Shown here in pieces: positions 48,662 to 63,933 of a stretch of DNA of 64,000 nt. Within the stretch, counting starts at the first letter, position 1. Each line of letters begins with the position of its first letter. This DNA is from Advenella kashmirensis W13003 (GTDB taxonomy: Bacteria > Pseudomonadota > Gammaproteobacteria > Burkholderiales > Burkholderiaceae_B): the NCBI RefSeq assembly GCF_000506985.1, contig NZ_KI650979.1:62001-126000 (forward strand), read 5' to 3'. The notes below the pieces were generated by a model. That model made no database searches. It saw only the letters and a list, made by a program, of their open reading frames with translations, and was not told the DNA's origin. Both the position numbers and the translations under genes were made by a program.

Positions 48662-48738
48662 CGTAGATCCCTCTCTGTTTTTTTACCGTATATAAGCTAT
48701 GACGGATCACAAACGAAAAGTGACAGGCCGGGTCGAAA

Positions 48739-49743: not shown

Positions 49744-49744
49744 A

Positions 49745-50263
49745 TCATACCGCGCCGGCATCCGCAAAAGCCTGTGTGTAACAATGTACGAGGCAGCCAG
49801 AAACATACTGGCGCACGCGACTGACTGATACCCCCAGATGAGCCGCAACCTGCGCATGCGTCTTTCCTTCCAGCCGGACCATGAGAAATGCGGTTCGTGC
49901 ATTTGGGGACAACGTTTCCAGCCACTGCGCAACCAGCGCCAGCGTTTGTGCTGCCTGAGCAATTGTCTCAGCCGAAGGAGCCGTATCGGAGCCATGCACG
50001 TGAAGCCACGACTCCCGGAATATCTGCGCCACTTTGCGGCTACGGGAATCGTCGATCATTAGGCGTGATGCGGTAGTGGTCAGCCAGGCGCGAGGTTCGC
50101 GCAACACGGGAGCCGGCGTGCCCAGCAGGCGACAAAAGGTATCCTGGGCGAAATCCGCTGCGTTGTGGGAGCAGCCCAGTTTACGGTGCAGCCAGCGTAC
50201 CAGCCATGGATAGTGCTGCACGTATAGCAGGCCGACGTCATCGGACGAAAGCGGGTTGGGCAT
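49745..50263 (-). CDS. FecI-type ECF RNA polymerase sigma factor
   Basis: Sigma70 family ECF factor of 172 aa. Region 2 (about 12-80; HNAADFAQDTFCRLL) and region 4 (about 115-165; TAFLMVRLEGKTHAQVAAHLGVSVSRVRQYV) are clear. Together with FecR and the STN-containing receptor it forms a cell-surface signalling system that switches on the receptor gene when the siderophore is present. A Fur-box-like site lies 30 bases upstream at 50294-50312, so iron starvation probably opens the system. Confidence 0.95.
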   Translation of the reverse strand: MPNPLSSDDVGLLYVQHYPWLVRWLHRKLGCSHNAADFAQDTFCRLLGTPAPVLREPRAWLTTTASRLMIDDSRSRKVAQIFRESWLHVHGSDTAPSAETIAQAAQTLALVAQWLETLSPNARTAFLMVRLEGKTHAQVAAHLGVSVSRVRQYVSGCLVHCYTQAFADAGAV

Positions 50264-50293
50264 GAGGATTCGGGTTGCAGCAATCTAATAAAT

Positions 50294-50312
50294 AATAATG
50301 CTTCTCATTATA
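50294..50312. promoter_or_regulatory. Fur-box-like site upstream of the ECF sigma gene
   Basis: AATAATGCTTCTCATTATA has arms ATAATG and CATTAT at the spacing of the 19-base Fur consensus GATAATGATAATCATTATC. It lies 31-49 bases before the sigma gene start. Confidence 0.7.
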
Positions 50313-50448
50313 GAATGCGTTTAAGAGAAAATGAAAGCAAAATGTATCATCTTTGCGTCAAATAAGCCCGTTTCGCTCTCAGGACCATGGGTGACGTCCA
50401 TACGGTACGCCGCTATTTGCTTACGGGCACGCTATTAAGACCGCAGTC

Positions 50449-51567
50449 ATGTACACCCCCTATAATCAACACTCGACTCTTATTTCGACTTACGGAGAAT
50501 ATCGAGTGTCCTATTTTTACGCGCTGATGCTGCTGGTTCCGGTGCTGGCAACATGCCTGGCTTTCCTGCCATGTAGTCACTGGACCATCCGCAGTCTGGA
50601 CTTTCCCCGGGTCCAGATTGCGGTGCTGTGCGTTTTAGCCTTGATCATGACTGCTGTTTACCCGCCTTCACCGGTCTGGCTCGCCTGGCTCGTGGTGATA
50701 ACAAATGTAATTGCCGTGATCTATCAGGCCTGCAAAATCCGCCCCTACACGCGATTAGCCCACAAGGAAGTGCTGAGCAATCAGGACGCCGACGATGACC
50801 GAACCATCTCTCTTCTCTCGTCCAACGTATTGACACCTAATCATAATAGCCAGGCGCTGATTGAACTGGTTCACCGCTACAAACCCGATCTGGTTCTGAC
50901 GCTGGAGTCGGATCAGTGGTGGCAGGATGCTCTGGAATGCCTGCACGCCGACTACCCGCATCGCGTTGCCATTCCGCTGGACAATTTGTACGGCATGCAT
51001 CTTTTTTCCCGGCTGCCCCTGGAAGAAACGGAAGTGCTGTACCGGGTCGAGCGCGACATCCCGTCCATTTGCAGTCAATTGGTTCTGCGATCGGGCGAAC
51101 GAATCCGTATTTACTGCCTGCATCCGACTCCGCCCAGTCCCACGGAGAGCGACACGTCAGCCCCCCGGGATGCAGAGCTGTTGCTGGTCGGCAAACAGAT
51201 CCGCGAGCGCGATGAAACCGCGCTGGTTTTTGGTGATCTGAATGATGTGGCCTGGTCGCATTCGACCCGGTTGTTCAAGAAAGTGAGCGAACTGCTGGAT
51301 GCGCGCATCGGGCGCGGCATGTTCAATACGTTCCATGCGCACTATCGCTTTCTGCGCTGGCCGCTTGATCATATTTTTCAGAGCCCGGAGTTTCAGATCA
51401 AGCAGATGGCCAAGCTGTCCGATATCGGTTCGGATCATTTCCCCATTTACGCAAAATTTCAGTACTGCCCCGCCGAAGAACATAAACACGAGGTGGAAAC
51501 GGCGGATACCGAGGAAATGAGCCAGGCCGATGAAAAGATTGCTGAAGGACGCGAAGAAGCGAACTGA
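50449..51567 (+). CDS. Membrane-anchored endonuclease/exonuclease/phosphatase-family protein
   Basis: Mg-dependent EEP-fold hydrolase of 372 aa with an N-terminal membrane part: three hydrophobic segments (about 24-45, 55-72 and 77-98). The catalytic domain (about 118-345) has SSNVLTPNHNS, a Glu/Asp in LVLTLESDQWW, HLFSRLPL, YCLHPTPPSP, FGDLNDVAWSHST, LDHIFQSP and the final SDHFPI catalytic His. A charged acidic tail (346-372) is not conserved. Such YafD-like proteins hydrolyse phosphodiesters, but the substrate (nucleic acid, lipid or metabolite) is unknown. It precedes the oxygenase operon by 231 bases on the same strand. Confidence 0.88.
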   Translation: MYTPYNQHSTLISTYGEYRVSYFYALMLLVPVLATCLAFLPCSHWTIRSLDFPRVQIAVLCVLALIMTAVYPPSPVWLAWLVVITNVIAVIYQACKIRPYTRLAHKEVLSNQDADDDRTISLLSSNVLTPNHNSQALIELVHRYKPDLVLTLESDQWWQDALECLHADYPHRVAIPLDNLYGMHLFSRLPLEETEVLYRVERDIPSICSQLVLRSGERIRIYCLHPTPPSPTESDTSAPRDAELLLVGKQIRERDETALVFGDLNDVAWSHSTRLFKKVSELLDARIGRGMFNTFHAHYRFLRWPLDHIFQSPEFQIKQMAKLSDIGSDHFPIYAKFQYCPAEEHKHEVETADTEEMSQADEKIAEGREEAN

Positions 51568-51798
51568 CCCGCGGCACCTTCCATCGCATGCACAGTGCGC
51601 TATCCCCGCACAAGATCAGCCCGGCGGCGTGTAAGGTAAAAAATTCAATCGCAAATAGCGGATTGCAGGGCGCCCGCACGATGTCTACACTTACCTGACA
51701 GATCGACCACTGCCCCGGAAGGGCGACGATACCGTATCCTTGGGGCGCTGCCGTATCAGCCTCTTCGGTGGCGCCTCCGTGGTGGAATCAAAGGCAAA

Positions 51799-52524
51799 GT
51801 GAATATAGAAATGACATCTGCGAGCACGATCACCCTCGACAATTACGAGTGGCAAACCATCCGCTCATCACTCGATGAATCCGGCCATGCAGTCCTGCCT
51901 GGTTTATTGACGCAGGCGCAATGCCAGGCCCTGTCTGACGCCTACGACGAGCACGGACGCTACCGTAGCCGGATCGTGATGGCGCGCCACGGGTTCGGGC
52001 GAGGCGAGTACAAATACTTCTCATACCCCTTGCCGGCCATCCTGGACCAGCTGCGTCAAGCCCTCTATCCCCGATTGGTTCCAATTGCCAATCAATGGAA
52101 TCAGCAACTTGGGTTGTCCGCGCACTATCCAGACCGACTGGACGATTTCCTGACTCAATGCCACGCGGCGGGTCAGACTCGGCCAACCCCGCTCATTCTT
52201 CAATATGGTGCCGGCGACTATAACTGCCTGCATCAGGACCTTTATGGCGAGCATGTGTTCCCGCTGCAAACCGCGATCCTGCTTTCGGCGCCGGAACGTG
52301 ACTTCACCGGCGGCGAATTTGTCATGACCGAAAGTGCCTCTGGCGGCCAGCAAATCGAAGTCATACCGTTGCAGCAGGGCGATGCATTGATCTTTACCGT
52401 CAATCAGCGACCGGCCCGGAGCCTGCGTCGCGGCACGCGCAAGGTCGCGATGCGCCATGGCGTCAGCGTTGTGCACAGCGGACGCCGTCACACTGTCGGC
52501 TTGATTTTTCATGATGCCCGCTAA
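51799..52524 (+). CDS. 2OG-Fe(II) dioxygenase with intact metal site
   Basis: Fe(II)/2-oxoglutarate oxygenase of 241 aa (prolyl-4-hydroxylase-like fold; COG3826-like by its motifs). The facial triad is His145 and Asp147 in NCLHQDLYGEHVFPLQ and His220 in MRHGVS, with Arg230 as the 2-oxoglutarate-binding basic residue ten residues on. RIVMARHGFGRGEYKYF is the conserved N-terminal segment. Start is GTG 51799 or ATG 51811; neither has a strong ribosome site. The gene overlaps the degenerate paralogue by 14 bases and is followed by a mini-Ada gene, suggesting a link to alkylation repair. Substrate unproven. Confidence 0.88.
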   Translation: MNIEMTSASTITLDNYEWQTIRSSLDESGHAVLPGLLTQAQCQALSDAYDEHGRYRSRIVMARHGFGRGEYKYFSYPLPAILDQLRQALYPRLVPIANQWNQQLGLSAHYPDRLDDFLTQCHAAGQTRPTPLILQYGAGDYNCLHQDLYGEHVFPLQTAILLSAPERDFTGGEFVMTESASGGQQIEVIPLQQGDALIFTVNQRPARSLRRGTRKVAMRHGVSVVHSGRRHTVGLIFHDAR

Positions 52525-53296
52525 ACCAACCGTCACGGAAAATCGCATGCCCGAAAAATCCGACCCAATCGCTCGCCCTTCAACAAATTCATCTGCTGAT
52601 AGGATCACACACGCGATACACAGTCTGGACTGGACGACCATCGCCACGCAGCTTGACCGTGAAGGCTACGCCCTGCTGCCCGGACTACTCTCAGTTGAAC
52701 AGACCGACTCACTGACGCGTCAGGCCGCAGACATGGAACTTCACCGCGAGATCGTCACCGGCGGCTCAGGCCACGGTGAGCGATTTTTTTTGCCAGAACC
52801 GCTAGCGAGTCCGCTGGACGTCATACAAACCCATTTTTATACACACCTGGTTCATATCGCCAACCGCTGGAATGAGGTCCTGCAAACGCCCGATCGTTAC
52901 CCGACCGACCTGGCGCAGTTTCTGGATTTCAATCGTGATTGCGGTCAGGTACGTACGCTTTCTCACCTGAATCGACTGGGCGAAACCGACAATCTGACGC
53001 TCCAGCAATACACCGAAGGCAAACACATTTTCCCGCTGCAAATCGTCGCCTTGCTGTCTGAACCAGGCACTAATTTTGAGGGTGGAGAAATGGTCATGAC
53101 CGAACAGCGTCCACGCATGCAGTCGCGTCCCATGGTGCTGCCGCTACGCCAGGGCGATGCAGCAATTATCGCAACCGCGCAGCGTCCGTTTAGAGGAAGC
53201 AAGGGCTATTATCGCGTGCAAACGCGGCACGCAATCAGTCGAGTGCGTCGTGGCGAACGCATCGGACTGGAACTGTTCTTTCACAACGCCCCCTGA
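52511..53296 (+). CDS. Degenerate 2OG-Fe(II) oxygenase paralogue (HxD motif lost)
   Basis: Paralogue of the gene just before it, 261 aa. It aligns along its length, for example EGYALLPGLL with ESGHAVLPGLL and GKHIFPLQ with GEHVFPLQ. At the metal site the HxD pair is replaced: Gln165 and Tyr167 (LQQYTEGKHIFPLQ) stand where the first copy has His145 and Asp147. The distal His240 and Arg250 remain. Iron binding in the usual way therefore seems impossible, although the frame is intact and the rest of the fold conserved. It could be a structural partner of the active copy or a binding protein. The first 35 residues are polar and may be untranslated if ATG 52547 is used. Confidence 0.82.
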   Translation: MMPAKPTVTENRMPEKSDPIARPSTNSSADRITHAIHSLDWTTIATQLDREGYALLPGLLSVEQTDSLTRQAADMELHREIVTGGSGHGERFFLPEPLASPLDVIQTHFYTHLVHIANRWNEVLQTPDRYPTDLAQFLDFNRDCGQVRTLSHLNRLGETDNLTLQQYTEGKHIFPLQIVALLSEPGTNFEGGEMVMTEQRPRMQSRPMVLPLRQGDAAIIATAQRPFRGSKGYYRVQTRHAISRVRRGERIGLELFFHNAP

Positions 53297-53316: not shown

Positions 53317-53592
53317 ATGCTTTCTGAAAAACAGTGGGTCCTGACAGGACCGGATGGCACCACTTATCGCAGCACACAGCCCGGCACATTGGGTGGTCAT
53401 CGACGCGGAAAAATCTATGGAACGCTGGACTGCCGTGCCGCACTGCAGGCTATCGCGCGCGGAGGTTATGTGAAACATCGCGTATTTTTTGCAGAAGAAG
53501 CGACAGCCATTGCAGCGGGCTACCGCCCCTGCGCGGTGTGTCTGCCGCAACGCTACGCGCTATGGAAGGCATCGCGGACAGGTGGCCATTAA
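53317..53592 (+). CDS. Mini-Ada zinc-binding protein
   Basis: Stand-alone protein of 91 aa resembling the N-terminal zinc domain of Ada: GTLDCRAALQAIARGGY, VFFAEEATAIAAGYRPCAVC. Three cysteines are present (Cys39, Cys72, Cys75). E. coli Ada uses four (38, 42, 69, 72); by eye Cys39 here matches Ada Cys42, so the methyl-accepting Cys38 has no counterpart. It is unlikely to take methyl groups from phosphotriesters and may only bind metal or DNA. It lies 20 bases after the degenerate oxygenase gene and closes that operon. It is convergent with a Bug gene four bases away. Confidence 0.82.
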   Translation: MLSEKQWVLTGPDGTTYRSTQPGTLGGHRRGKIYGTLDCRAALQAIARGGYVKHRVFFAEEATAIAAGYRPCAVCLPQRYALWKASRTGGH

Positions 53593-53596
53593 CGCA

Positions 53597-54562
53597 TTAT
53601 TGCATTTGCAAATCCGCGGCATGAACTGTATCGGCCCACAATTTCTGCTGATCATCAATGAAAGAGGCAAATTCCTGTGGCGTTTCGCCGCCTGGTGTAC
53701 CGCCCAGCGTGTGAAACCGTGAAACAATATCCTCCTCATGCAGCGCTTTTCTGGCCGCCTGCTGGATTGTATTGACAATCTCATCCGGTGTTCCGGCAGG
53801 CGCAACCAGGCCGAACCAGGCATTGACCACCATATTGTCAATACCGGCCTCTTTCATGGTGGGCACATCGGGCAACTGATCGGACCGTTTTTCACCTGTA
53901 ACGGCCAGTGCACGAAATTTTCCGGATTTGATGGACGCGATCGAACTGGGCAGATTATCAATCATGAATGTATATTGATTGCCCAGCAAACCCGACACCG
54001 CAGGACCCGCGCCTTTATAGGGAATATGCTGCGCGGTCTGTTTAATACGTTGCAGAAACATCTCCGCAGAAAGATGCGGCGATTGCCCTTTTCCCGATGA
54101 ACCGAATGTTCGCCGATCCTCATTTTCGGAGAGATACGTCACCAGCTCAGCAACCGACTTGACGGGCGTTTCGCTATTGACCACCAGCACATTGGGAACG
54201 GAAATAACAAGTGTGATGGCCTTGAAATCTTCCTTTTTATAGGGCAGCGTTTTATACAGGCTGTAGTTGATCGCATTGGGCCCGACATTTCCCATGCCAA
54301 GCGTGTAGCCATCAGGTTTGCTGCGCACCAGTGCCTGCGAGCCAATAATGCCGGCAGCGCCCGCCTTATTCTCAATGACGACGGTTTGGCCCAGCGTCTT
54401 GCCCATTTTTTCCCCGACCAGCCGGGCGACAATATCGGTGGTTCCGCCAGGCGCGGCGGGCACAATGATGGTAATCGGTTTGTCTGGCCAGGCCGCGCTG
54501 GCGGGTCCGGAACAGAGTAAAGCGGCGGTCACGGCAGCAATCAGGCGCAGTGTCATATTCAT
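53597..54562 (-). CDS. Bug/TctC-family periplasmic solute receptor (5 of 6)
   Basis: Periplasmic receptor of 321 aa, divergent from catB. AGGAG lies seven bases before ATG 54562; the frame is open to 54616. Signal peptide MNMTLRLIAAVTAALLCSG with cleavage after ASA; mature start AWPDKPITIIVPAAPGGTTD. VVIENKAGAAGIIGS and HIPYKGAGPAVSGLLG are family loops. The CatM-type box at 54717-54731 is in the shared intergenic region, 155 bases from this start, so control by the same LysR protein is possible. Likely ligand: an acid linked to the cat pathway. Confidence 0.92.
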   Translation of the reverse strand: MNMTLRLIAAVTAALLCSGPASAAWPDKPITIIVPAAPGGTTDIVARLVGEKMGKTLGQTVVIENKAGAAGIIGSQALVRSKPDGYTLGMGNVGPNAINYSLYKTLPYKKEDFKAITLVISVPNVLVVNSETPVKSVAELVTYLSENEDRRTFGSSGKGQSPHLSAEMFLQRIKQTAQHIPYKGAGPAVSGLLGNQYTFMIDNLPSSIASIKSGKFRALAVTGEKRSDQLPDVPTMKEAGIDNMVVNAWFGLVAPAGTPDEIVNTIQQAARKALHEEDIVSRFHTLGGTPGGETPQEFASFIDDQQKLWADTVHAADLQMQ

Positions 54563-54716
54563 ATGTGTCTCCTGTTTGTAGGTTTGCGTTATCCCGTCAG
54601 AATACGGGCGGACCACAAGATTAGCTATCTGTGTTTGGCGAAGACATGCTTCATCCCTGTTTAATGGCGGTTTACCCCTACCTGCCCGCGCCTGCCAGCC
54701 GCCGCTTTCCCATCCG

Positions 54717-54731
54717 ATACTTTTTAGGTAT
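54717..54731. promoter_or_regulatory. CatM/BenM-type LysR box upstream of catB
   Basis: ATACTTTTTAGGTAT fits ATAC-N7-GTAT, the site known for CatM and BenM. It differs from the box at 58325 at one base. Its centre is about 64 bases before the predicted catB transcription start. Confidence 0.78.
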
Positions 54732-54752
54732 ACATAAGAACAAATTCCATAT

Positions 54753-54781
54753 TAGACCCGGCGCCAGCCGCCTTATATACT
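54753..54781 (+). promoter_or_regulatory. Predicted catB promoter
   Basis: -35 TAGACC (54753-54758), 17-base spacer, -10 TATACT (54776-54781); start expected near 54788. A weak -35 suits an activated promoter. The distance from the LysR box is 21 bases. Confidence 0.65.
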
Positions 54782-54819
54782 CAATGGATACACGTAACGC
54801 CGATACCAGGGAAATGGAT

Positions 54820-55944
54820 ATGGATATGAATGCCACAATCGTCAACGTCAGTACGCAAATTCTGGATATTCCAACCATCCGCCCGCACAAGATGTCCGTG
54901 GCCACCATGCACAATCAATGCCTGGTGCTTGTACGAATCAAAACCTCGGATGGCATCGAAGGCATCGGCGAAGCCACCACAATTGGCGGCCTCAACTACG
55001 GTGGTGAAAGCCCCGAGAGTATCAAGACCAATATCGATCGCTACTTTGCACCGTTGATTACCGGCCAGTCGGCTACTCGCCTGGCGTCCCTTCGCCAGCG
55101 CATCAATAAGACAATCAAAGACAACCGCTTTGCCAAATGCGCCATCGAGACGGCGCTGTATGATGCCCATGCAAAACGACTGGGGGTACCGCTGCATGCC
55201 CTTTTTGGCGGTGCCATTCATGACGAAATCAGCGTCGCCTGGACCCTGGCCAGCGGGGATACGCAAAAGGACATCGCGGAAGCGCAGCAGATGCTGGAGA
55301 GCCGCCGTCATTGCATTTTCAAACTCAAGGTGGGCATGCGCGCGCCCAAGGACGATCTGCAGCACATCCGCGCCATCAAGAAAGCCGTGGGCGATGACGT
55401 CAGCATCCGGATCGACGTGAACCAGGGCTGGTCGGAAACAGAAGCATTACGCCAACTAAGGCCCCTGGCCGACGCAGGCGTTGACCTGATCGAGCAGCCC
55501 ATCCATGAAAAAAATCTGGCGGGATTGCAACGACTGACCGCGCAGGGAATTGTGCCCATTATGGCCGATGAGTCGCTGAAAGGAACGGAAGATGGTTTTG
55601 CTCTGGCCAGCGCACACTGCGCCAATGTCTTCGCCATTAAAATCGAACAGGCGGGTGGATTGCAGAATGCACGCGACCTGATCGGTATTGCCCAGGCGGC
55701 CGATATTGCCCTGTATGGCGGCACAATGCTGGAAGGATCTATCGCCACGATTGCCGCCGCGCATCTTTTTTCAACGATCAGTAAACTGGAATGGGGCACA
55801 GAAATGTTTGGCCCGCTGCTGCTGAAGGACGAGATTCTGGCGACACCGCTGGACTACAGCGACTTCACATTGAAGATTCCCACCGGCCCGGGTCTGGGGG
55901 TTGAACTGGACGAGGAAAAAGTGTCCTTTTACACTCGTCCGTAA
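54820..55944 (+). CDS. catB: Muconate cycloisomerase
   Basis: Converts cis,cis-muconate to muconolactone in the catechol branch of the beta-ketoadipate pathway, 374 aa, enolase superfamily. Catalytic lysines are Lys168 and Lys170 (FKLKVG) and Lys274 (AIKIEQ); metal ligands are Asp199, Glu225 and Asp250. These fall one residue from the numbering of P. putida CatB. The start at 54820 has AGGGA six bases upstream and lies after the predicted start of transcription (about 54788), which excludes the frame-open sites at 54631 and 54784. A CatM-type box and sigma70 promoter precede it. It is convergent with catD. Confidence 0.95.
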   Translation: MDMNATIVNVSTQILDIPTIRPHKMSVATMHNQCLVLVRIKTSDGIEGIGEATTIGGLNYGGESPESIKTNIDRYFAPLITGQSATRLASLRQRINKTIKDNRFAKCAIETALYDAHAKRLGVPLHALFGGAIHDEISVAWTLASGDTQKDIAEAQQMLESRRHCIFKLKVGMRAPKDDLQHIRAIKKAVGDDVSIRIDVNQGWSETEALRQLRPLADAGVDLIEQPIHEKNLAGLQRLTAQGIVPIMADESLKGTEDGFALASAHCANVFAIKIEQAGGLQNARDLIGIAQAADIALYGGTMLEGSIATIAAAHLFSTISKLEWGTEMFGPLLLKDEILATPLDYSDFTLKIPTGPGLGVELDEEKVSFYTRP

Positions 55945-55968
55945 ACCCGGCAGGGTTTGGTCCCATTA

Positions 55969-55992
55969 GCCCGGCAGGGCCGGGCCAGTTTT
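55969..55992 (+). terminator. Terminator after catB
   Basis: Stem GCCCGGC (55969-55975), loop AGG, GCCGGGC (55979-55985), then CAGTTTT. It sits between the convergent catB and catD genes; the T run overlaps the catD stop codon. Confidence 0.65.
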
Positions 55993-56770
55993 AATCGCCC
56001 AGGAATGCGCCGACCGCGGCATTGAACGCTGCGGCGGCTTCGATATTGGAAAGATGGGACGCTTCCAGGGCAACACGCTCTGCGCGCACGACCTGGCCAG
56101 CGATAAAATCGGCATCATCGACCGTGGTAACCGGATCGTGAGCGCCGGCGACCACCAGCACAGGCGCCGTAATCGTCTTGATGTCATCGCGCAGATCAGC
56201 CGTGGCCAGCGCTTCGCAGCAAGCGGCATAGCCCTCTGGCGGCGTGCCGCGTAATTGCGCGATCAGGGGTGCCACCGTAGCCGGATGAGCATCCACAAAC
56301 TCAGCGGTAAACCAGCGCCCCGCCGACCCATCCGCTACCGGCCCCATACCCTGAGCACGCACCAGAGCCGCCCGCTCTTTCCAGGCCGTTTCCTGACCAA
56401 TCCGGGCGGCCGTATTGCATACGACCAGTCGATCCAACCGGGACGCCGCATGAACGCCAAGCCACTGCCCGATCAGCCCGCCCATGGAAATACCACAGAA
56501 GCTGAACGTCTGTATCTGCAGCGCATCGACCAGTGCCAGTACATCCTGACCTAATTGTTCCAGCGTATAGGATCCCGCAGGTGCCGATGAACCACCATGA
56601 CCACGAGTGTCATAGGTCAGGACGCGATGCGTTTTGCTGAAAGCGGCCACCTGCTCCGCCCACATGCGCCTCGTGGTGCCAAGCGAGTTCGACAAGACCA
56701 GCACCGGCGCCTGTGGGTCGCCGTCGAGCTGGTAGTCAACATGAAGATCATTGATAGCAAGCGTAGTCAT
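55991..56770 (-). CDS. catD: 3-oxoadipate enol-lactonase
   Basis: Alpha/beta hydrolase of 259 aa opening 3-oxoadipate enol-lactone to 3-oxoadipate. The nucleophile is Ser95 in FCGISMGGLIGQWLG; the acid is in VVAGAHDPVT and the histidine in LEASHLSNIEAA. RRMWAEQVAAFSKTHRVLTYDTRGHG is the typical N-terminal segment of CatD/PcaD. ATG 56770 gives the family length; the frame is open to 57028 inside catC. Last gene of bug-catC-catD. It and catB converge over a terminator-like hairpin. Confidence 0.93.
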   Translation of the reverse strand: MTTLAINDLHVDYQLDGDPQAPVLVLSNSLGTTRRMWAEQVAAFSKTHRVLTYDTRGHGGSSAPAGSYTLEQLGQDVLALVDALQIQTFSFCGISMGGLIGQWLGVHAASRLDRLVVCNTAARIGQETAWKERAALVRAQGMGPVADGSAGRWFTAEFVDAHPATVAPLIAQLRGTPPEGYAACCEALATADLRDDIKTITAPVLVVAGAHDPVTTVDDADFIAGQVVRAERVALEASHLSNIEAAAAFNAAVGAFLGD

Positions 56771-56807
56771 GGTTCCTGTCCTGTTTGCATTGTCTGCATC
56801 TGCACGA

Positions 56808-57083
56808 TCAGATCGCCGATGGATGACGGCACAGGGCAGTGACCTGGATATCCATATAAGGGAACAGCGGCAGTCCGGACAACACATCATGCAGCTCGGC
56901 ATTATCCTGCACATCAAAAATACTGACATTGCTGTATTTGCCGACCACGCGCCAGATATGGGGCCATTTGCCTGCCCGCTGCAAATCCTGTGAGTACTGC
57001 TTCTCTTTCGCCTTGATATCAGCGGCAACCTCGGCCGGCATATCCTGAGGAAGATTGACTTTCATTTCGACCATGAACAACAT
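56808..57083 (-). CDS. catC: Muconolactone delta-isomerase
   Basis: Small isomerase of 91 aa converting muconolactone to 3-oxoadipate enol-lactone; the family forms a decamer. MLFMVEMKVNLPQDMP and GKWPHIWRVVGKYSNVSIFDV are near-invariant segments. AAGGA lies before ATG 57083; the frame extends 22 codons further without support. It follows the Bug gene by 110 bases, a gap that contains alternative hairpins, and precedes catD by 37 bases. Confidence 0.95.
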   Translation of the reverse strand: MLFMVEMKVNLPQDMPAEVAADIKAKEKQYSQDLQRAGKWPHIWRVVGKYSNVSIFDVQDNAELHDVLSGLPLFPYMDIQVTALCRHPSAI

Positions 57084-57139
57084 ATTTAATCCTTGATATT
57101 TAACGAAAAAGCACTCATAAGCAAGCACACCTCTGACAT

Positions 57140-57182
57140 CGAAGTTCAAGCACCGAGCTCCGAACTTCGTGTTTCGAACTTC
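57140..57182 (-). other. Alternative hairpins between bug and catC
   Basis: CGAAGTTC (57140-57147) can pair with GAACTTCG (57162-57169) or with a second GAACTTC (57176-57182). Located in the 110-base gap between bug and catC; may protect the bug mRNA end or tune catC expression. Confidence 0.4.
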
Positions 57183-57193
57183 AGCAGTGAAGC

Positions 57194-58198
57194 CTAGTTT
57201 GCCGAAATGCCTGTTTCAGAAATGATTTTTTTCCATTTATCGGTTTCTGATTGCAGATAGGTCTTGAGTTCTGCCGGCGTACTGCCGATTTTTTCAGCGC
57301 CAATCGTCTGGAATGTGGTTTTGACCTTATCCGTTTCCATTGCCTTGATCATTGCCTTTTGCAGTGTATCGATGACATCGGCAGGCGTGCCGGCAGGTGC
57401 AAAGGTCGCAAACCACGGCCGCAATTCATAGCCGGGCATGCCGCTTTCTGCAATGGTCGGCACATCAGGCAGGGATGACGAGCGTTTGCTGGTGGTAATG
57501 CCCAGCGCCTTCAGTTTACCTGCATCGATATGCGGTTTGGACGAAGTGATACTGTCGAACATATAATCGACCTGCCCGCCCAGCAAATCGGAAACGGCCG
57601 GACCACTGCCTTTGTAGGGCACATGCAGCATATCCAGTTTACCCAGATAGGTGAACAAGGCACCGGCAAGATGGATCGATGTACCCACACCGGCAGACGC
57701 GTATGTGTATTTGCCAGGATTGGCCTTGACCTGTTCGATCACATCCGCTACCGAATTGACGTCCTTGCGACTTGCCTGTGTGACCAGGATATTTGGTACG
57801 TCCGCCAGCAGAGAGATCGGCTCGAAATCTTTGATCGGGTCATAGCCCAGTCTTTTATAAAGAGACGGATTGACGGCCATGCCATTGGCCACAATCATGA
57901 TCGTGTAGCCATCCGGTTTGGCATTCGATACCTGGGTTGCACCAATATTACCGCCGGCGCCAGGTTTATTTTCCACCACAATCGGCTGGCCCAGGTCCTT
58001 GGAGACAGTCTCGCCAAGCGTGCGCGCAATCACATCCATGGCGCCGCCGGGCGGGAACGGTACGACCCAGGTAATCGGCCGTTCAGGATAGGCAGCCTGC
58101 GCAAAAGAAGCCCCCAAGAGCCCGCCAACGGCCAGGGCGGCGCTCAGAGTAGATATGCCGAAACGGCGACGCGTGATGTTTTTCAACTTCATCTCCAT
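57194..58198 (-). CDS. Bug/TctC-family periplasmic solute receptor (6 of 6), first gene of catC-catD operon
   Basis: Periplasmic receptor of 334 aa. The N-terminus MEMKLKNITRRRFGISTLS has twin arginines and could be a Tat signal, with cleavage near SFAQA; mature start AYPERPITWVVPFPPGG. VVENKPGAGGNIGAT, KPDGYTIMIVANG and HVPYKGSGPAVSDLLGG are family loops. Either ATG 58198 or 58192 may be used. The promoter has TAGACA-N17-GATAAT with a CatM-type box centred at about -64. Being first in an operon with catC and catD, it probably captures muconate, benzoate or a related acid; this is inference. Confidence 0.92.
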   Translation of the reverse strand: MEMKLKNITRRRFGISTLSAALAVGGLLGASFAQAAYPERPITWVVPFPPGGAMDVIARTLGETVSKDLGQPIVVENKPGAGGNIGATQVSNAKPDGYTIMIVANGMAVNPSLYKRLGYDPIKDFEPISLLADVPNILVTQASRKDVNSVADVIEQVKANPGKYTYASAGVGTSIHLAGALFTYLGKLDMLHVPYKGSGPAVSDLLGGQVDYMFDSITSSKPHIDAGKLKALGITTSKRSSSLPDVPTIAESGMPGYELRPWFATFAPAGTPADVIDTLQKAMIKAMETDKVKTTFQTIGAEKIGSTPAELKTYLQSETDKWKKIISETGISAN

Positions 58199-58274
58199 AC
58201 GATATGAGTAATCGGGACGCCGACCTGATGCCACATTGATGTGACGGGTGTCTCCGGCCCCGGATGTTTTCTTT

Positions 58275-58303
58275 ATTATCCGTATTGTTTTTGTCCCTGT
58301 CTA
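58275..58303 (-). promoter_or_regulatory. Predicted promoter of bug-catC-catD
   Basis: Read on the minus strand: -35 TAGACA (58303-58298), 17-base spacer, -10 GATAAT (58280-58275); start expected near 58268. The distance from the LysR box is again 21 bases. Confidence 0.65.
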
Positions 58304-58324
58304 AGACTATATTTGTCGTAATCA

Positions 58325-58339
58325 ATACTTTTAAGGTAT
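58325..58339. promoter_or_regulatory. CatM/BenM-type LysR box upstream of catR and bug-catC-catD
   Basis: ATACTTTTAAGGTAT fits ATAC-N7-GTAT. It ends five bases before the LysR start codon, which suits autorepression, and is centred about 64 bases before the predicted start of the divergent operon. Confidence 0.8.
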
Positions 58340-58344
58340 GAATA

Positions 58345-59226
58345 ATGGAGTTAAGACAAATCCGCTACTTCCAGTGCGTTGCCCGGGAGCTGAGCTTTAC
58401 CAAGGCGGCCAGGCTGCTGCATATTGCCCAGCCGCCGCTGAGCCGGCAAATCAAAATGCTTGAAGAGGAACTGGGTGTGGAGGTCTTTGAGCGGCTGGGG
58501 CGCGGCATACAGCTGACCGAAGCCGGTCGCTATTTCCTGGACCAGACTGAAAAAATGACGCTGCGGCTGGAGGAAACCATCAATGCCACACGACGGATCG
58601 GGCAAAATGACCGCATGTGGTTTGGCGTCGGTTTCGTTCCGTCCACGCTGTATGGTCATATGCCCGCGCTCATTCGGCAACTGCGCGAGATGAACAATCA
58701 GGTTGAAATCGGCCTGGTGGAAATGACTACATTGCAACAATTCGATGCTCTCAAATCGGGCCGTATCGATATCGGCGTCGGGCGAATTCTGCTCAAGGAT
58801 GAGGAAATCGAGCGCCTGGTGCTGACCGATGAACCCCTGGCGCTTGCCTTGCCGATCAGACATCCATTGGCACATCGCCGATCAGTCAAAATATCAGATA
58901 TCCTGAACGAACCGCTGATCCTGTACCCGGCCCGCCCCCGACCCAGCTATGCGGATCATGTGCTGAACCTGTTTAAACAAAAAGGTCATTCACCCGTGGT
59001 CGCCCAGGAAGTCAATGAACTGCAGACGGCCATCGGGCTGGTGACGGCAGGAATCGGCGTATCGATTGTGCCCGAATCTGTCAGACGCCTGCATCGGGAA
59101 GACGTGGTCTATATCGACCTGGACGAGTCCGGCTTTACCTCACCCATCATGCTGAGCTGGCGCAAAAACGATCAATCGGCTTTTCTGAAGGAGGTCATTG
59201 CCCTGTTCAGGCAAACAACGATCTAG
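58345..59226 (+). CDS. catR: LysR-family regulator of the cat genes (CatM/BenM/CatR type)
   Basis: Regulator of 293 aa. It begins MELRQIRYFQCVARELSFTK, the usual start of the CatM/BenM/CatR subgroup, with winged helix (1-60) and a LysR effector domain (about 90-290). In that group muconate (and benzoate for BenM) is the inducer. It is divergent from bug-catC-catD; its ATG is five bases from an ATAC-N7-GTAT box, so it is probably autoregulated, and an almost identical box precedes catB. The symbol is assigned by this context. Confidence 0.88.
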   Translation: MELRQIRYFQCVARELSFTKAARLLHIAQPPLSRQIKMLEEELGVEVFERLGRGIQLTEAGRYFLDQTEKMTLRLEETINATRRIGQNDRMWFGVGFVPSTLYGHMPALIRQLREMNNQVEIGLVEMTTLQQFDALKSGRIDIGVGRILLKDEEIERLVLTDEPLALALPIRHPLAHRRSVKISDILNEPLILYPARPRPSYADHVLNLFKQKGHSPVVAQEVNELQTAIGLVTAGIGVSIVPESVRRLHREDVVYIDLDESGFTSPIMLSWRKNDQSAFLKEVIALFRQTTI

Positions 59227-59250
59227 ACTGTGGCGGCAGCAGGTACTTAG

Positions 59251-59886
59251 TCATTCCGTATATGCGTTGAACTCCCCTGATTCCGGATCACGCACAAACA
59301 GCAGGCCTGTTGCGACACCAAAATAGGCGCCATGCAGGGTCAGCGATCCATCCTGCACACGCTCGCGCACCGCCGGAAAGGTCATCAAATTGTTCAGGCT
59401 GTATTCGACCACGGCCCATTCCAGCTGCCGGATCCAGCCCTGATGGTCTTCGGTGGGCGGCCCCAGTCGATCGACAACCGGCGCGATTTGCGACATCCAT
59501 TTGCCGATGAAATCGCGCTTGGACAGGGGCGCCGACTTGTTGGCAAAAGCGGCAACGCCACCGCAACTGGCATGGCCCATGACCACGATGTGTTTGACTT
59601 TGAGCGCATTGACGCCAAATTCAATGGCGGCACTGGTGCCGTGATACGAGGTGTCGACATCCGGCTCGCAGGGCGGCACCAGATTGGCAATATTGCGCAC
59701 CACAAACATTTCGCCGGGGCCTGCATCAAAGATGGTTTCTGGCGCAACCCGCGAATCACCACAGCCGATAACCATGATTTCAGGATGCTGGCCCTTTTCG
59801 GCGAGCGTCTCGTAGCGGGCCCGTTCTCGTTCAAGCCGGCCATGAAGAAATGAAACATAGCCTTCGGTAAGTCTTTTGGGAAACAT
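59251..59886 (-). CDS. Beta-class carbonic anhydrase
   Basis: Zinc enzyme interconverting CO2 and bicarbonate, 211 aa. Zinc ligands are Cys42, His105 and Cys108 (GCGDSRV and MGHASCGG), with the Asp44-Arg46 pair of the active site. I start at 59886 because AGGA lies seven bases before that ATG and MFPKRLTEGYVSFLHGR matches the usual family start; ATGs at 59919 and 59946 are possible and would add a basic N-terminus. It is convergent with the LysR gene (24 bases) and divergent from the riboswitch-TerC unit. Confidence 0.93.
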   Translation of the reverse strand: MFPKRLTEGYVSFLHGRLERERARYETLAEKGQHPEIMVIGCGDSRVAPETIFDAGPGEMFVVRNIANLVPPCEPDVDTSYHGTSAAIEFGVNALKVKHIVVMGHASCGGVAAFANKSAPLSKRDFIGKWMSQIAPVVDRLGPPTEDHQGWIRQLEWAVVEYSLNNLMTFPAVRERVQDGSLTLHGAYFGVATGLLFVRDPESGEFNAYTE

Positions 59887-60048
59887 GTGGTGATCCTGCG
59901 GTCGAATTAATCTTGGCATTATTTTACGCCGATTCTTTTTCCGCATAATCTCATTGCGTTCATATTCTGGAACTCGCAATCAGACCGTTGACCGCCGCTC
60001 TCCCTCTCCAGTGCAGAAAAATGAACGAACATATTTTGGAAAAATAGC

Positions 60049-60076
60049 TTGACATACCGCCCTGCCCCGCTATACT
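60049..60076 (+). promoter_or_regulatory. Sigma70 promoter of the riboswitch-TerC unit
   Basis: TTGACA (60049-60054) and TATACT (60071-60076) are separated by 16 bases. The predicted transcript starts near 60083, directly before the aptamer. Confidence 0.8.
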
Positions 60077-60083
60077 TACGGAA

Positions 60084-60250
60084 TCAAGGGGAGTAGCTCT
60101 CTTTCCGCCGCATCGTCATTACGGTTGTCATAAGACATCCCGGTGCCCGGGCAACATGCTCATGTTGCAGCAAGACCTTGCCATCAAGGGCAAGGTGCAT
60201 CCTCTGAAAAAAGGTGGCCTGTGTCCTTGCGGATCAGGCCGTTTTTTTGT
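60084..60250 (+). ncRNA. yybP-ykoY (Mn2+) riboswitch with intrinsic terminator
   Basis: The leader opens with AAGGGGAGTAGCTCTCTTT (from 60087), the hallmark of this aptamer class, and later has GACCTTGCC-ATCAAG-GGCAAGGT (about 60175-60196). The class binds Mn2+. It is followed by a stem GGCCTG/CAGGCC (60216-60221 with 60235-60240) and a T run (60242-60248), which is the expression platform. Mn2+ binding is expected to prevent termination and switch on the TerC gene. Class recognised from motif and context; boundaries are approximate. Confidence 0.85.
60216..60248 (+). terminator. Terminator of the riboswitch expression platform
   Basis: Six-base stem GGCCTG/CAGGCC around a 13-base loop, followed by G and seven Ts. 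It ends about 105 bases before the TerC start codon, so it must be avoided for TerC to be made. Confidence 0.75.
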
Positions 60251-60353
60251 CTGACGCTACTCTCGAATTTGCCGCAAGCCTTCAAGGGCAGGCAGGCCAG
60301 GCGTCCCGATCCGTTCCACTTCAACGACAAATTTGACGGATTCATGGTGACTT

Positions 60354-61064
60354 ATGCTTGAACTTTTACAGACGCTCAGTTGGACAGCCGTTTTTCAGAT
60401 TATTCTCATTGACATACTGCTCGGCGGCGATAACGCAGTTGTGATTGCCCTGGCCTGCCGCAACCTGCCGCCAAAACAGCGAATGCAGGGTATTTTGTGG
60501 GGTACCGCCGGAGCCATTATCCTGCGGGTCGCGCTCATCGCGTTCGCTTTGACTTTACTGTCCGTTCCTTTCCTGAAAATCGTCGGCGCCCTGCTGCTGG
60601 TCTGGATCGGTATCAAACTGCTGATTCCCGAAGATGATTCGCATGGCAAGATCAACGGCGGCACGACTATCTTTTCGGCGTTCAAGACCATTCTGATTGC
60701 CGACTTTGTGATGAGCCTGGACAACGTGATTGCCATTGCCGGTGCGGCCCAGGGCGCAGACCCGAGCCATCAGATCGGCCTGGTGATCTTCGGACTGGTT
60801 ATCAGCGTGCCGATCATCATCTGGGGCAGCACGCTGGTTCTGAAACTGATCGACCGTTTTCCAAGCGTGGTTATCTTCGGCGCGGCACTGCTGGGCTGGA
60901 TCGCCGGTGGTATGTTGATCACAGATATCGTGATCGTCGAACGGTTCGGCGAGCCATCTACTGCCATGAAGCTGGCTGCTGAAGCCATCGGCGCCGTGGT
61001 CATCGTAGTTGCCGGACGGGCACTTGCCAAACGCAAGCAGCGCCTTGCGGTAAGCCAGGCGTAA
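60354..61064 (+). CDS. TerC/Alx-family membrane protein (Mn2+ exporter candidate)
   Basis: Integral-membrane protein of 236 aa with seven hydrophobic segments. The acidic membrane motifs typical of TerC are present: ILLGGDNAVVIALACRN (about 14-31) and FVMSLDNVIAIAGAAQG (about 120-136). Members such as Alx, YkoY and MeeF-like proteins export manganese. The gene is preceded by a yybP-ykoY riboswitch with a terminator, so Mn2+ should turn on its expression, in keeping with this role. A perfect palindrome follows the gene as a terminator. Confidence 0.92.
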   Translation: MLELLQTLSWTAVFQIILIDILLGGDNAVVIALACRNLPPKQRMQGILWGTAGAIILRVALIAFALTLLSVPFLKIVGALLLVWIGIKLLIPEDDSHGKINGGTTIFSAFKTILIADFVMSLDNVIAIAGAAQGADPSHQIGLVIFGLVISVPIIIWGSTLVLKLIDRFPSVVIFGAALLGWIAGGMLITDIVIVERFGEPSTAMKLAAEAIGAVVIVVAGRALAKRKQRLAVSQA

Positions 61065-61667: not shown

Positions 61668-62609
61668 TCACTTCACCCTGTGGCCTGAGTCGGTTTCATA
61701 CTCCTTCACGGTTTCCCGCAGACAGTCCATCGCAAGCTGTACGGCGTGCGACATAAACGCATCGGTATTCCAATACATGGTGACAGCCCCAGCTCCAGGC
61801 AGATCAAGCGGCAGGATGCGCAACGTGTTCATTTCAGCCAGCCGCAGGGCAGCCCGATGCGATGCCACGCCGATCATATTGCTTTTGTTCAGCAAGGTCA
61901 GGTTGGCCGTGACAGAATTGGTTTCCAGGCAGTCCTGCGGAATGATCTGTCTGGCGGTTGCCAAAGCGCTATCGAGCGCATTGCGCACCGGCGTGCCCTT
62001 GGGCCAGACGATCCAGCGATAGGCACGCAGATCCGACCAGCGCAACGGCCCTGCATTGAGCAGCGGATGACCTGGGCGCACCACCAGATGAATACCGTCA
62101 AAAAAAAGGGTTTCCTTGTCTACGGTGGGCGCCCCCAAAGCCAGATCGGCGCGCCCAAGCACGATATCCAGGCCGCCTTCCTCCAGCTGTGCGATCAGCC
62201 TGTCGGTGGTGCCTTCCATCAGGCTGACACGGGCCTTGGGCATTCGCTCCAGCAGACGCATAATGGCGATGGGTACAGTATCGGAGGCGGCAACGCCACT
62301 GGCGCCGATCATCACCCGGCCGCTGCCCCCTTCCCGCAGCGCTTCCATATCACTACTGGCGCGATCAAGCTGCACGTCGATACGGCGGGCGTGGGCGATG
62401 AGCATTTCCCCGTACGGCGTGGGGATCAGGCCCCGGGCATGGCGCTCGAACAGGGGCAGGCCGATGTCATCCTCAAGATCTTTGAGCCATTTCGACAGGC
62501 CCGGCTGCGTGGTATGGAGTTTGACAGCCGAATGGCTGATATTGTGTGTCTGTGCCAGACTAAGCAACATTTTCACATGGCGCAGCCGCAAGCGATGAGT
62601 CCAATCCAT
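61668..62609 (-). CDS. LysR-family regulator (GbpR/PcaQ-like)
   Basis: Regulator of 313 aa. N-terminal winged helix begins LRLRHVKMLLSLAQTHNISHSA and TTQPGLSKWLKDLEDDIG; this form, with QPGLSKWL, is seen in GbpR/PcaQ-like regulators. The effector domain spans about 95-300. It is divergent from the flavoprotein hydroxylase gene 118 bases away and probably controls that operon. The gap contains the palindrome AATAATATTATT, a candidate but weak operator. Confidence 0.9.
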   Translation of the reverse strand: MDWTHRLRLRHVKMLLSLAQTHNISHSAVKLHTTQPGLSKWLKDLEDDIGLPLFERHARGLIPTPYGEMLIAHARRIDVQLDRASSDMEALREGGSGRVMIGASGVAASDTVPIAIMRLLERMPKARVSLMEGTTDRLIAQLEEGGLDIVLGRADLALGAPTVDKETLFFDGIHLVVRPGHPLLNAGPLRWSDLRAYRWIVWPKGTPVRNALDSALATARQIIPQDCLETNSVTANLTLLNKSNMIGVASHRAALRLAEMNTLRILPLDLPGAGAVTMYWNTDAFMSHAVQLAMDCLRETVKEYETDSGHRVK

Positions 62610-62727
62610 GAGGAAACCTGGTATACGATATTTAATATGGATAATAATATTATTTCATTTTAATTCATATATCAATGACGTCATAATAGCGGAACATCAA
62701 AACGTTGGGTGAAAGGAGGAAATCATC

Positions 62728-63933
62728 GTGACGACCAAAAACACGCGCACCGCCATTGTCGTAGGTGGCGGCATTGGCGGTCTGGCAGCCGCGTTGGCGC
62801 TGACCCGCCAGGGCATCCGGGTGCAGTTGCTGGAACAAGCTTCGGAGATCGGAGAGATCGGCGCAGGCATTCAGTTGGGGCCCAATGCCTTTTCCGCGCT
62901 TGATGCGCTCGGCGTTGGCCAGGCCGCCAGACAACGCGCCGTATTTACCGACCACATCATCATGATGGACGCCGTCGACAATACCGAGATCATCAGGATT
63001 CAGACGGATCAAGCCTTTCGTGAGCGTTTTAATGGACCCTATGCAGTCATTCACCGTGCCGACATTCATGGCGCCATCCTGGATGGCGTCAGGAACGACC
63101 CCCTCATCTCATTTCGCACATCGACCCGGATCAACGCATTTACGCAGACTGATGCCTATGCGCAGGTGAGCGATGACGAAGGCAATATCTACCAGGCAGA
63201 TGCCGTCATTGGCTGTGATGGCGTCAAATCGGTCGTGCGCGATCATCTTATCGGCGGCGCACCGCGCGTAACCGGACATGTCGTTTACCGCGCGGTGGTC
63301 GACAAAGAAAACATGCCCGAGGATTTGCGGATCAACGCGCCGGTATTGTGGGCCGGCCCGCGTTGCCATCTTGTCCATTACCCGTTACGCGGCGGCGAGC
63401 AATACAACCTGGTCGTGACATTTCACAGCCGGGAGCAGGAGGAATGGGGCGCACGCGACGGCAGCAAAGAAGAAGTCTTGTCTTATTTTGAAGGCATTCA
63501 TGCCCGCCCGAGACAATTGCTGGATTTGCCTGATTCCTGGCGCCGCTGGGCGACAGCGGACCGTGAACCGGTAGGTCAATGGAGTTTTGGTCGCGCCACG
63601 CTGCTGGGCGATGCCGCGCATCCCATGTCGCAGTACATGGCCCAGGGCGCATGTATGGCACTGGAGGACGCGGTGACGCTGGGCTTGTCGGTTGAACAGT
63701 GCCAGTCTGATCTGCCTGCCGCATTCAAGCTTTATGAATCCCTGCGTATCCCACGCAGCGCGCGGGTCGTCTGGTCTACTCGTGAAATGGGCCGCATTTA
63801 CCACGCAGCGGGTGTAGAACGCGCCGTGCGCAATTCCTTATGGAAAGACGCGCCCCAATCACGCTTTTATGACAACCTGCAATGGCTGTATGGCTGGAAC
63901 GCCGACAACTGCATGCAGGGCACTCGCCTTTGA
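62728..63933 (+). CDS. FAD monooxygenase, 3-hydroxybenzoate 6-hydroxylase-like
   Basis: Class A flavoprotein monooxygenase of 401 aa. FAD motifs: IVVGGGIGGLAAALAL (about 9-24), the DG motif in GCDGVKSVVRDHL and GDAAHPMSQYMAQGACMALED. The last residues (SRFYDNLQWLYGWNADNC) resemble 3-hydroxybenzoate 6-hydroxylases (XlnD/NagX type), which make gentisate; salicylate hydroxylases are similar and are the main alternative. GAAAGGAGGAAATC precedes the ATG. A LysR gene is divergent and another gene starts 40 bases downstream, so it is the first gene of an aromatic-acid operon that continues outside the window. Confidence 0.85.
   Translation: MTTKNTRTAIVVGGGIGGLAAALALTRQGIRVQLLEQASEIGEIGAGIQLGPNAFSALDALGVGQAARQRAVFTDHIIMMDAVDNTEIIRIQTDQAFRERFNGPYAVIHRADIHGAILDGVRNDPLISFRTSTRINAFTQTDAYAQVSDDEGNIYQADAVIGCDGVKSVVRDHLIGGAPRVTGHVVYRAVVDKENMPEDLRINAPVLWAGPRCHLVHYPLRGGEQYNLVVTFHSREQEEWGARDGSKEEVLSYFEGIHARPRQLLDLPDSWRRWATADREPVGQWSFGRATLLGDAAHPMSQYMAQGACMALEDAVTLGLSVEQCQSDLPAAFKLYESLRIPRSARVVWSTREMGRIYHAAGVERAVRNSLWKDAPQSRFYDNLQWLYGWNADNCMQGTRL

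Follow-up and report, generated by a model that had tools for sequence, protein, structure and literature searches.

What does a cat locus do in a genome in which no gene for catechol 1,2-dioxygenase (catA) can be recognized? The question is raised by a stretch of 64,000 nucleotides of Advenella kashmirensis W13003 (RefSeq assembly GCF_000506985.1, contig NZ_KI650979.1, positions 62,001 to 126,000), hereafter the window, in whose own numbering the locus is described. It carries catB, for muconate cycloisomerase, on a promoter of its own and, separately, the LysR-type regulator gene catR, divergent from an operon bug2-catC-catD, whose lead gene codes for a periplasmic receptor of the TctC/Bug type (Table 1). 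The original prediction read these genes as a split cat locus tied together by two matched promoters; the genes are as it had them, and what it overlooked is that the genome has neither a recognizable catA, by profile searches with PF00775 and TIGR02439, nor a benA over the cut-off. From the sequence comparisons below, there is about an even chance that the locus would be a CatR regulon for the uptake and use of muconate made elsewhere, and not a catechol pathway.

catB without a recognizable catA

In the window genome (G000), PF00775 matched two neighboring genes only, at C2:74401 and C2:75138 (open frames of 253 and 220 aa), with a pcaD-like match nearby (L089); the pair is read as a pcaHG-like protocatechuate 3,4-dioxygenase, and the best TIGR02439 match in the genome had an E value of 1.6e-14. 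The catechol ortho-cleavage set is represented by catB, catC, catD, and pcaF, with catA missing. A pcaF over the cut-off was found in 15 of 16 genomes, the window's included, the match in G047 being partial. On contig C1 of G047, split or shortened matches were seen for TctA (pieces near 966k, 1810k, 4173k, 4186k, and 4210k) and for pcaF (a piece at 3003k), which looks like sequencing error or decay.

The same combination recurs in the family, where catB is present in 125 of 268 genomes. A full catA was found in 70, all of which also have catB (70/70), and the other 55 catB genomes have remote catA homologues only (17), matches at the level of pcaH only (20), or none (18); the classes were set at E ≤2.7e-82 for a full catA and about 1e-40 to 1e-50 for a remote homologue, the remainder being at the pcaH level. 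The catB neighborhood was viewed in all 38 catB genomes without a catA-like match beyond the pcaH level, and in 38/38, from nine genera and including the window, a Bug2 orthologue (at least 55% identity over 280 residues) stands beside catB. Eight of these loci are split (G000, G046, G047, G051, G074, G076, G187, and G267) and 30 are compact, with the order catR/catB-bug2. Identity to Bug2 is 73–87% in the seven other split loci and 62–68% in the compact loci; the other Bugs of the compact loci are at 33–46%.

Further support was provided by the intermediate genomes, those with remote homologues only, since Bug2 stands beside catB in 9/9 viewed of the 17, and by a sampled control of loci with catA beside catB, where it was found in 2/17 (L139 and L140, from one genus). 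Genera g2, g7, and g8 are represented among both kinds of loci. Two loci fall outside both the 38 and the 17: L111, the second catB of G006 (41%, without Bug2), which is compact in one tree and an outgroup in the topology test, and L141, in which catB lies beside catC and catD, without Bug2, and catA is on another contig. L144 and L148 were gathered with the controls, but they are catB-bug2 operons in catA-bearing genomes. An order-wide sample of 299 genomes yielded 11 catB genomes outside the family, eight with catA at E ≤1e-107 and three with remote homologues only.

One alternative explanation is that the locus serves ordinary catechol-type breakdown, in which Bug2 would import an aromatic acid and an unrecognized enzyme or a substituted-catechol route would make muconate inside the cell. 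It agrees with the prediction of COG3181 proteins as receptors of aromatic transporters in these regulons (PMC6449761; this and the other papers cited are drawn on in excerpt, and what is said of them applies to the excerpts), with the 17 catB genomes that have remote intradiol homologues, and with two groups of relatives: in G044, G045, G048, and G052, catA adjoins and follows catB, and in G126, G200, G201, and G203 a third copy of the promoter composite described below immediately precedes a separate catA (L078 to L081). Because these relatives have the regulon with catA, the version of the window can be seen as the same regulon without it. What makes the alternative unlikely is that five locus-bearing genomes (G051, G074, G076, G187, and G267) have no PF00775 match at all, that G000 has the pcaHG-like pair only and no benA over the cut-off (other catechol-forming enzymes were not searched for), and that catechol from a neighboring salicylate hydroxylase had to be rejected, as the gene matches a 3-hydroxybenzoate 6-monooxygenase, an enzyme that provides no route to catechol. 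Among the 18 genomes checked with PF00775, 12 had a match; G050 lacks both locus and match. A benA over the cut-off was found in 3/16 genomes, G044, G045, and G048, the three genomes of this test whose locus includes catA, and not in G049, whose catA is about 80 kb from the locus.

A catechol pathway that had lost catA and was now decaying would also leave catB without catA. In the Advenella clade with catA-less loci, omega (NG86) is 0.045–0.079 in catB and 0.039–0.067 in bug2, reaches 0.096 in catR, and does not exceed 0.033 in catC, where two pairs gave no defined value; in catA-bearing loci it is 0.016–0.038 in catB and 0.032–0.132 in bug2. Several pairs are near silent-site saturation. The catB values of the catA-less loci are thus slightly raised, as decay would have it; against this, all four genes tested in that clade have omega values below 0.1, the frames are intact, both promoters are kept, and catA-less catB-bug2 loci recur in nine genera. 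The genes of the cat locus are under purifying selection and do not look like a remnant, and decay is very improbable.

Two promoters, probably for one regulator

The two 15-mers which the original prediction had placed before catB and between catR and bug2 differ at one base, and each is followed by 21 bp, TAGAC(C/A), 17 bp, and a –10; direct reading confirmed the places and the spacings. In the window, ATAC-N7-GTAT occurs at these two sites only (expected mean 0.32; at least two sites in 3/100 shuffles), and in the genome (4.85 Mb) at 46 sites, compared with 19 for the pattern read backwards. Sites within one mismatch of ATACTTTTWAGGTAT are limited to the two boxes of the window, and the scan for the box with its promoter elements that had been suggested at the outset, made with the composite ATAC-N7-GTAT-N21-TAGAC, likewise returned only these two, with 0 for the backwards control.

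Relatives were gathered via CatR (34 loci, of which L001–L004, L006–L008, and L014 were used) and via the composite in the 268 family genomes, where it occurs in 42 and the backwards control in 5. The split layout, with catB on its own promoter and bug2 divergent from catR, was found in 18 genomes, window included, and bug2 is there mostly accompanied by catC and often by catD. Both exact composites are present in 16/18, the exact catB-side one missing in G052 and Zwartia. Variants of the layout include Zwartia (L008), with catB on the opposite side of catR, G048, whose halves are about 20 kb apart, Pollutimonas L003 and L004, with neither catC nor catD in the gap, and the large Advenella genomes L001, L014, L069, and L072, with no catD in it. 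As catR adjoins the bug2 box each time, the proposed use of both sites by a single LysR protein is now well supported.

In nine aligned loci the sequence is TATTAGACC, 17 bp, TATACT at the catB promoter and TAGTCTTAGACA at the bug2 promoter, with 17 bp between TAGACA and GATAAT; conserved among the aligned relatives are the half-sites, the spacing, the bases preceding TAGAC, and the –10. Two further resemblances had been offered as signals and proved not to be conserved: the likeness of the two N7 cores (Candidimonas L002: ATACCCTGCAGGTAT vs ATACTTTTTAGGTAT) and the ACAAAT shared by the 21-base spacers, which at the catB site is not kept in non-Advenella loci, so that both coincidences carry little weight. 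In the compact promoters between catR and catB, nearly all of which have the TAGTCTTrGAC of Table 1, the exact ATAC-N7-GTAT is found in only 15/40. For CatR and ClcR, an activation site adjoining the recognition site has been described (PMC6449761); the stretch preceding TAGAC stands at the position of such a site and may act as one here. Because the bug2 box ends 5 bp from catR and its plus-strand AAGG (58333–58336) is where the catR ribosome site is expected, CatR probably also represses its own gene. No Rfam RNA reached the gathering threshold in window positions 53500–60500.

Table 1. Genes and promoter elements of the cat locus, in window coordinates
Feature	Position	Strand	Basis or remark
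catB-promoter CatR-type recognition box ATACTTTTTAGGTAT	54717..54731	+	exact composite at the orthologous place in 16/18 split genomes, window included
candidate activation site AAATTCCATATTAGACC, overlaps catB –35	54742..54758	+	TATTAGACC at catB promoter in 9/9 compared loci; proposed role
catB –35 TAGACC	54753-54758	+	21 bp after box, 17 bp before –10
catB –10 TATACT	54776-54781	+	TATACT in 9/9 compared loci; predicted transcription start ~54788
catB, muconate cycloisomerase	54820..55944	+	TIGR02534 544 bits, cut-off 335; other in-frame ATGs 54814, 54826
catD, 3-oxoadipate enol-lactonase	55991..56770	-	TIGR02427 296 bits, cut-off 256
catC, muconolactone isomerase	56808..57083	-	TIGR03221 163 bits, cut-off 131; PF02426
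bug2, TctC/Bug-type periplasmic receptor, lead gene of bug2-catC-catD	57194..58192	-	PF03401 258 bits
bug2 –10 GATAAT	58275..58280	-	GATAAT in 9/9 compared loci; predicted transcription start ~58268
candidate activation site AAATATAGTCTTAGACA, overlaps bug2 –35	58298..58314	-	TAGTCTTrGAC in 17/17 split relatives, 39/40 compact loci; proposed role
bug2 –35 TAGACA	58303-58298	-	21 bp after box, 17 bp before –10
bug2-promoter CatR-type recognition box ATACTTTTAAGGTAT	58325..58339	-	direct reading, window scan, alignment of relatives
catR, LysR-type regulator	58345..59226	+	PF00126, PF03466; best solved relatives BenM, CatM

The composite was also considered as a marker of CatR alone and rejected in this role, because in 21 of the 42 genomes it occurs only away from cat genes. 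When translations were read at 14 non-cat composite loci, 13 were found to adjoin an acyl-CoA dehydrogenase-, enoyl-CoA hydratase-, CoA-transferase-, Bug-, or Rieske oxygenase-like gene; at L057 no downstream open reading frame (ORF) was found. A recurrent promoter of the same geometry, box, 21 bp, TATTAGAC, stands in other genera beside acyl-CoA dehydrogenase-, enoyl-CoA hydratase-, CoA-transferase-, and Bug-like genes (L037–L043, L055, and L058–L061; box at 1501, in L043 at 150). In L062 (G122:C13:109062, box at 1501), the composite precedes a Rieske-oxygenase-like gene, and the same contig has a catA about 17 kb away.

The surroundings of the locus contain a second Bug receptor gene (53597-54562, minus strand), divergent from catB with the catB box in between and not orthologous to bug2; it adjoins catB in G047 and G049 as well, and is about 7 kb off in A. 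incenata and FME57. At 61668-63933, a LysR regulator gene, whose best named match is PcaQ, below the cut-off, is divergent from the 3-hydroxybenzoate 6-monooxygenase match. On the other side, at 46229-53296, TonB-receptor-like, FecR-like, and sigma-factor-like ORFs are followed by two adjacent ORFs of about 250 aa, which on reading resemble 2OG-Fe(II) oxygenases and have no NCBIfam match.

Proposed ligand and mode of action

The best solved chain for CatB is a muconate cycloisomerase (3ct2), and the protein is closer to muconate than to chloromuconate cycloisomerases. CatR aligns with residues 1–290 of BenM and, on reading of the alignment, keeps the Arg of BenM Arg146. To this extent, and in having ATAC-N7-GTAT as site 1 upstream of catB and a LysR regulator, the window is like the Acinetobacter CatM/BenM system (PMC6628147), and the description of its boxes as CatM/BenM-type holds for the site; it does not hold for the protein, whose membership was rejected at 229 bits vs 600 for BenM and 228 vs 580 for CatM (NCBIfam cut-offs). 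Other differences from Acinetobacter are the absence of benA over the cut-off and of a catA, as already described, and, on the same reading of the alignment, Thr at Arg160 of the BenM benzoate pocket (PMC6628147), a difference that tells against BenM only, as CatM has His.

Bug2, whose N-terminus (TRRRFGI) reads like a Tat signal, has nearly invariant loops, ASAGVGTSIHLAG in 62/62 and VPFPPGGAMD in 60/62 rows of the orthologue alignment, which align with ligand-touching loops of TphC. TphC requires an aromatic ring in its ligand (PMC8556258). AdpC of Rhodopseudomonas palustris, a receptor of the TTT family, is reported to bind C6–C8 dicarboxylates and trans,trans-muconate (PMC8556258) and resembles Bug2 in being an orphan receptor of the TctC family with a C6 dicarboxylate ligand, in Bug2 a proposed one (PMC8556258, PMC5812351); it differs in that no link to cat genes is described in the excerpts of these papers, and its chain 5oei is only the 8th of 11 solved Bug2 relatives. 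A dedicated uptake of cis,cis-muconate is known from MucK of Acinetobacter baylyi, which is an MFS permease, whereas Bug2 is a TTT periplasmic receptor, and Pseudomonas putida without MucK is reported to show a negligible response when cis,cis-muconate is supplied from outside at up to 1 mM (PMC11258901). No muconate-binding Bug was found in the literature (open-licence papers). Taken together, the missing catA, the comparisons of CatB, CatR, and Bug2, and the precedents of AdpC and MucK suggest muconate or a near relative as the most likely candidate for both the Bug2 ligand and the CatR inducer.

Outside the cell, Bug2 would capture muconate, or a C6 dicarboxylate close to it, for transport through a shared TctAB-type permease coded elsewhere. 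Inside the cell it would bind CatR, which would sit on the ATAC-N7-GTAT box at both promoters and, once liganded, also engage the conserved stretch by the –35, starting the transcription of catB and of bug2-catC-catD, and CatR would repress itself via the bug2 box. CatB, CatC, and CatD would convert muconate to 3-oxoadipate, which the genome could use further (pcaF). We infer the ligand, the import, the activation, and the self-repression, as well as the order of events given in the next section, from the comparisons described.

A closely related explanation is that the imported compound is a relative of muconate, either a substituted muconate or muconolactone, which would be recognized by Bug2 and CatR and be the substrate of CatB, CatC, and CatD. 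The linkage of Bug2 with CatB does not name the ligand, and several loci have neither catC nor catD; however, the scores of CatB and CatC clearly exceed their family cut-offs, and among solved structures CatB is nearer to muconate cycloisomerases than to those of chloromuconate, which leaves this explanation doubtful.

Several observations weigh against the uptake and use of muconate as the function of the locus. In a fuller control, Bug2 was present in 6/23 loci with catA beside catB; the six added loci were retrieved by the box search, which is biased toward this regulon, and Bug2 is in the locus in G044, G045, and G052, about 20 kb off in G048, and missing in G202 and G181. As 19 of the 38 genomes belong to g2, the counts are not independent events. 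Within the loci, catC was found in 8/8 catA-less split loci vs 1/30 compact catA-less ones, and without catC the lactone would not proceed to 3-oxoadipate. The absence of catA rests on the assemblies used and on the two profile searches, the box is not specific to CatR, and the omega of catB is higher in the catA-less loci. Moreover, no TctA gene lies near the locus (TctB was not searched for), and of the seven elsewhere in the genome the nearest on the same contig is about 960 kb away; orphan receptors are common in the TTT (TctC/Bug) family (PMC5812351).

Origin of the split layout and its meaning

The original prediction regarded the split layout with a receptor as lead gene as new. At least 18 genomes have it, and COG3181 genes in CatR regulons had been predicted earlier (PMC6449761). 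Its idea of a locus divided under one regulator fares better as to the regulator than as to the division, since a better reading of the arrangement is a separate catB unit, of the kind linked to catA in relatives, combined with a CatR/Bug2 module that has no catB of its own. The lead position of bug2 is explained by its place, which in relatives is taken by catB, behind a promoter with the same TAGTCTTrGAC stretch.

Trees of the individual proteins add to this. In a quick tree, the split CatR groups with the CatR of catB-bug2 operons, and its nearest outside relatives are L106 and L082; in a quick tree of Bug2, L106 is nearest to the split group, and L139 and L140 fall inside it. L106 (G124) has the order catR/catB-bug2-catC, from which the removal of catB would give the order of the window. 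A clade of its CatB with the split CatB was rejected (p 4.4e-5), as it goes with the compact CatB, and so was the grouping of its CatR with the compact group (p 0.0008). The split CatB groups with catA-linked CatB (support 92/84). A plain vertical relocation of the operon's own catB is disfavored by the rejection of split CatB with L106 CatB. Pointing the other way, the approximately unbiased (AU) test did not reject split and compact CatB as one clade (p 0.29), and the groups of the topology tests were named after the trees had been seen, with a chosen subset of compact rows. In G087 (L076), whose catB lies beside catA elsewhere, catR with bug2 alone is seen once more, as a separate case.

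The CatR/Bug2 half would then descend from an operon of the type catR/catB-bug2-catC, whose original catB was lost, leaving bug2 as the lead gene. A different catB, of the kind linked to catA in relatives, would supply the step from its own CatR-boxed promoter, and catA would have been lost afterwards.

The nearest described systems are the CatR regulons of Betaproteobacteria predicted in silico by Suvorova and Gelfand in 2019, which include COG3181 (TctC/Bug) in the order catR/catB(C)-COG3181-(catD) (PMC6449761). The window has the layout of such a regulon, with catR divergent from regulated genes and a box with an adjacent conserved stretch. In Ralstonia/Cupriavidus and Bordetella petrii, too, CatR is divergent from genes that include catB and a Bug gene, in some cases also catC and catD, and the activation site is adjacent, the box there being AkACC-N5-GGTAT; catA is not among the CatR-controlled genes given in the excerpts, the Ralstonia catA being under CatM/BenM. 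The window differs in that the searches found no catA, that catB is set apart behind a box of its own, and that Bug2 is in the lead position; where the earlier work proposes an aromatic ligand (PMC6449761), muconate is proposed here. As far as literature searches show, four things are new: the catA-free genomes, the association of Bug2 with the absence of catA, the two-promoter split form that uses a different catB, and the reading as muconate import. That the genomes are free of catA and that muconate is the ligand are proposals; Bug genes under CatR had been predicted before (PMC6449761).

For the family as a whole, it is plausible, if a shade short of an even chance, that many Alcaligenaceae have a catA-free regulon for scavenging muconate, in which CatR and CatB (with CatC and CatD in some) would always be paired with one orthologous muconate-binding Bug, and live on ring-cleavage products of other organisms; the window would be a rebuilt form, its original catB replaced from a catB-catA unit. 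"Catechol degradation" annotated from catB alone can mislead. If the proposal is true, a ligand and a function would be assigned to one conserved group of Bug receptors, of which many are orphans, and receptor and sensor would form a pair for muconate, an industrially interesting compound whose uptake limits biosensors (PMC11258901). Cross-feeding on muconate would then be suggested as a widespread trait of the family.

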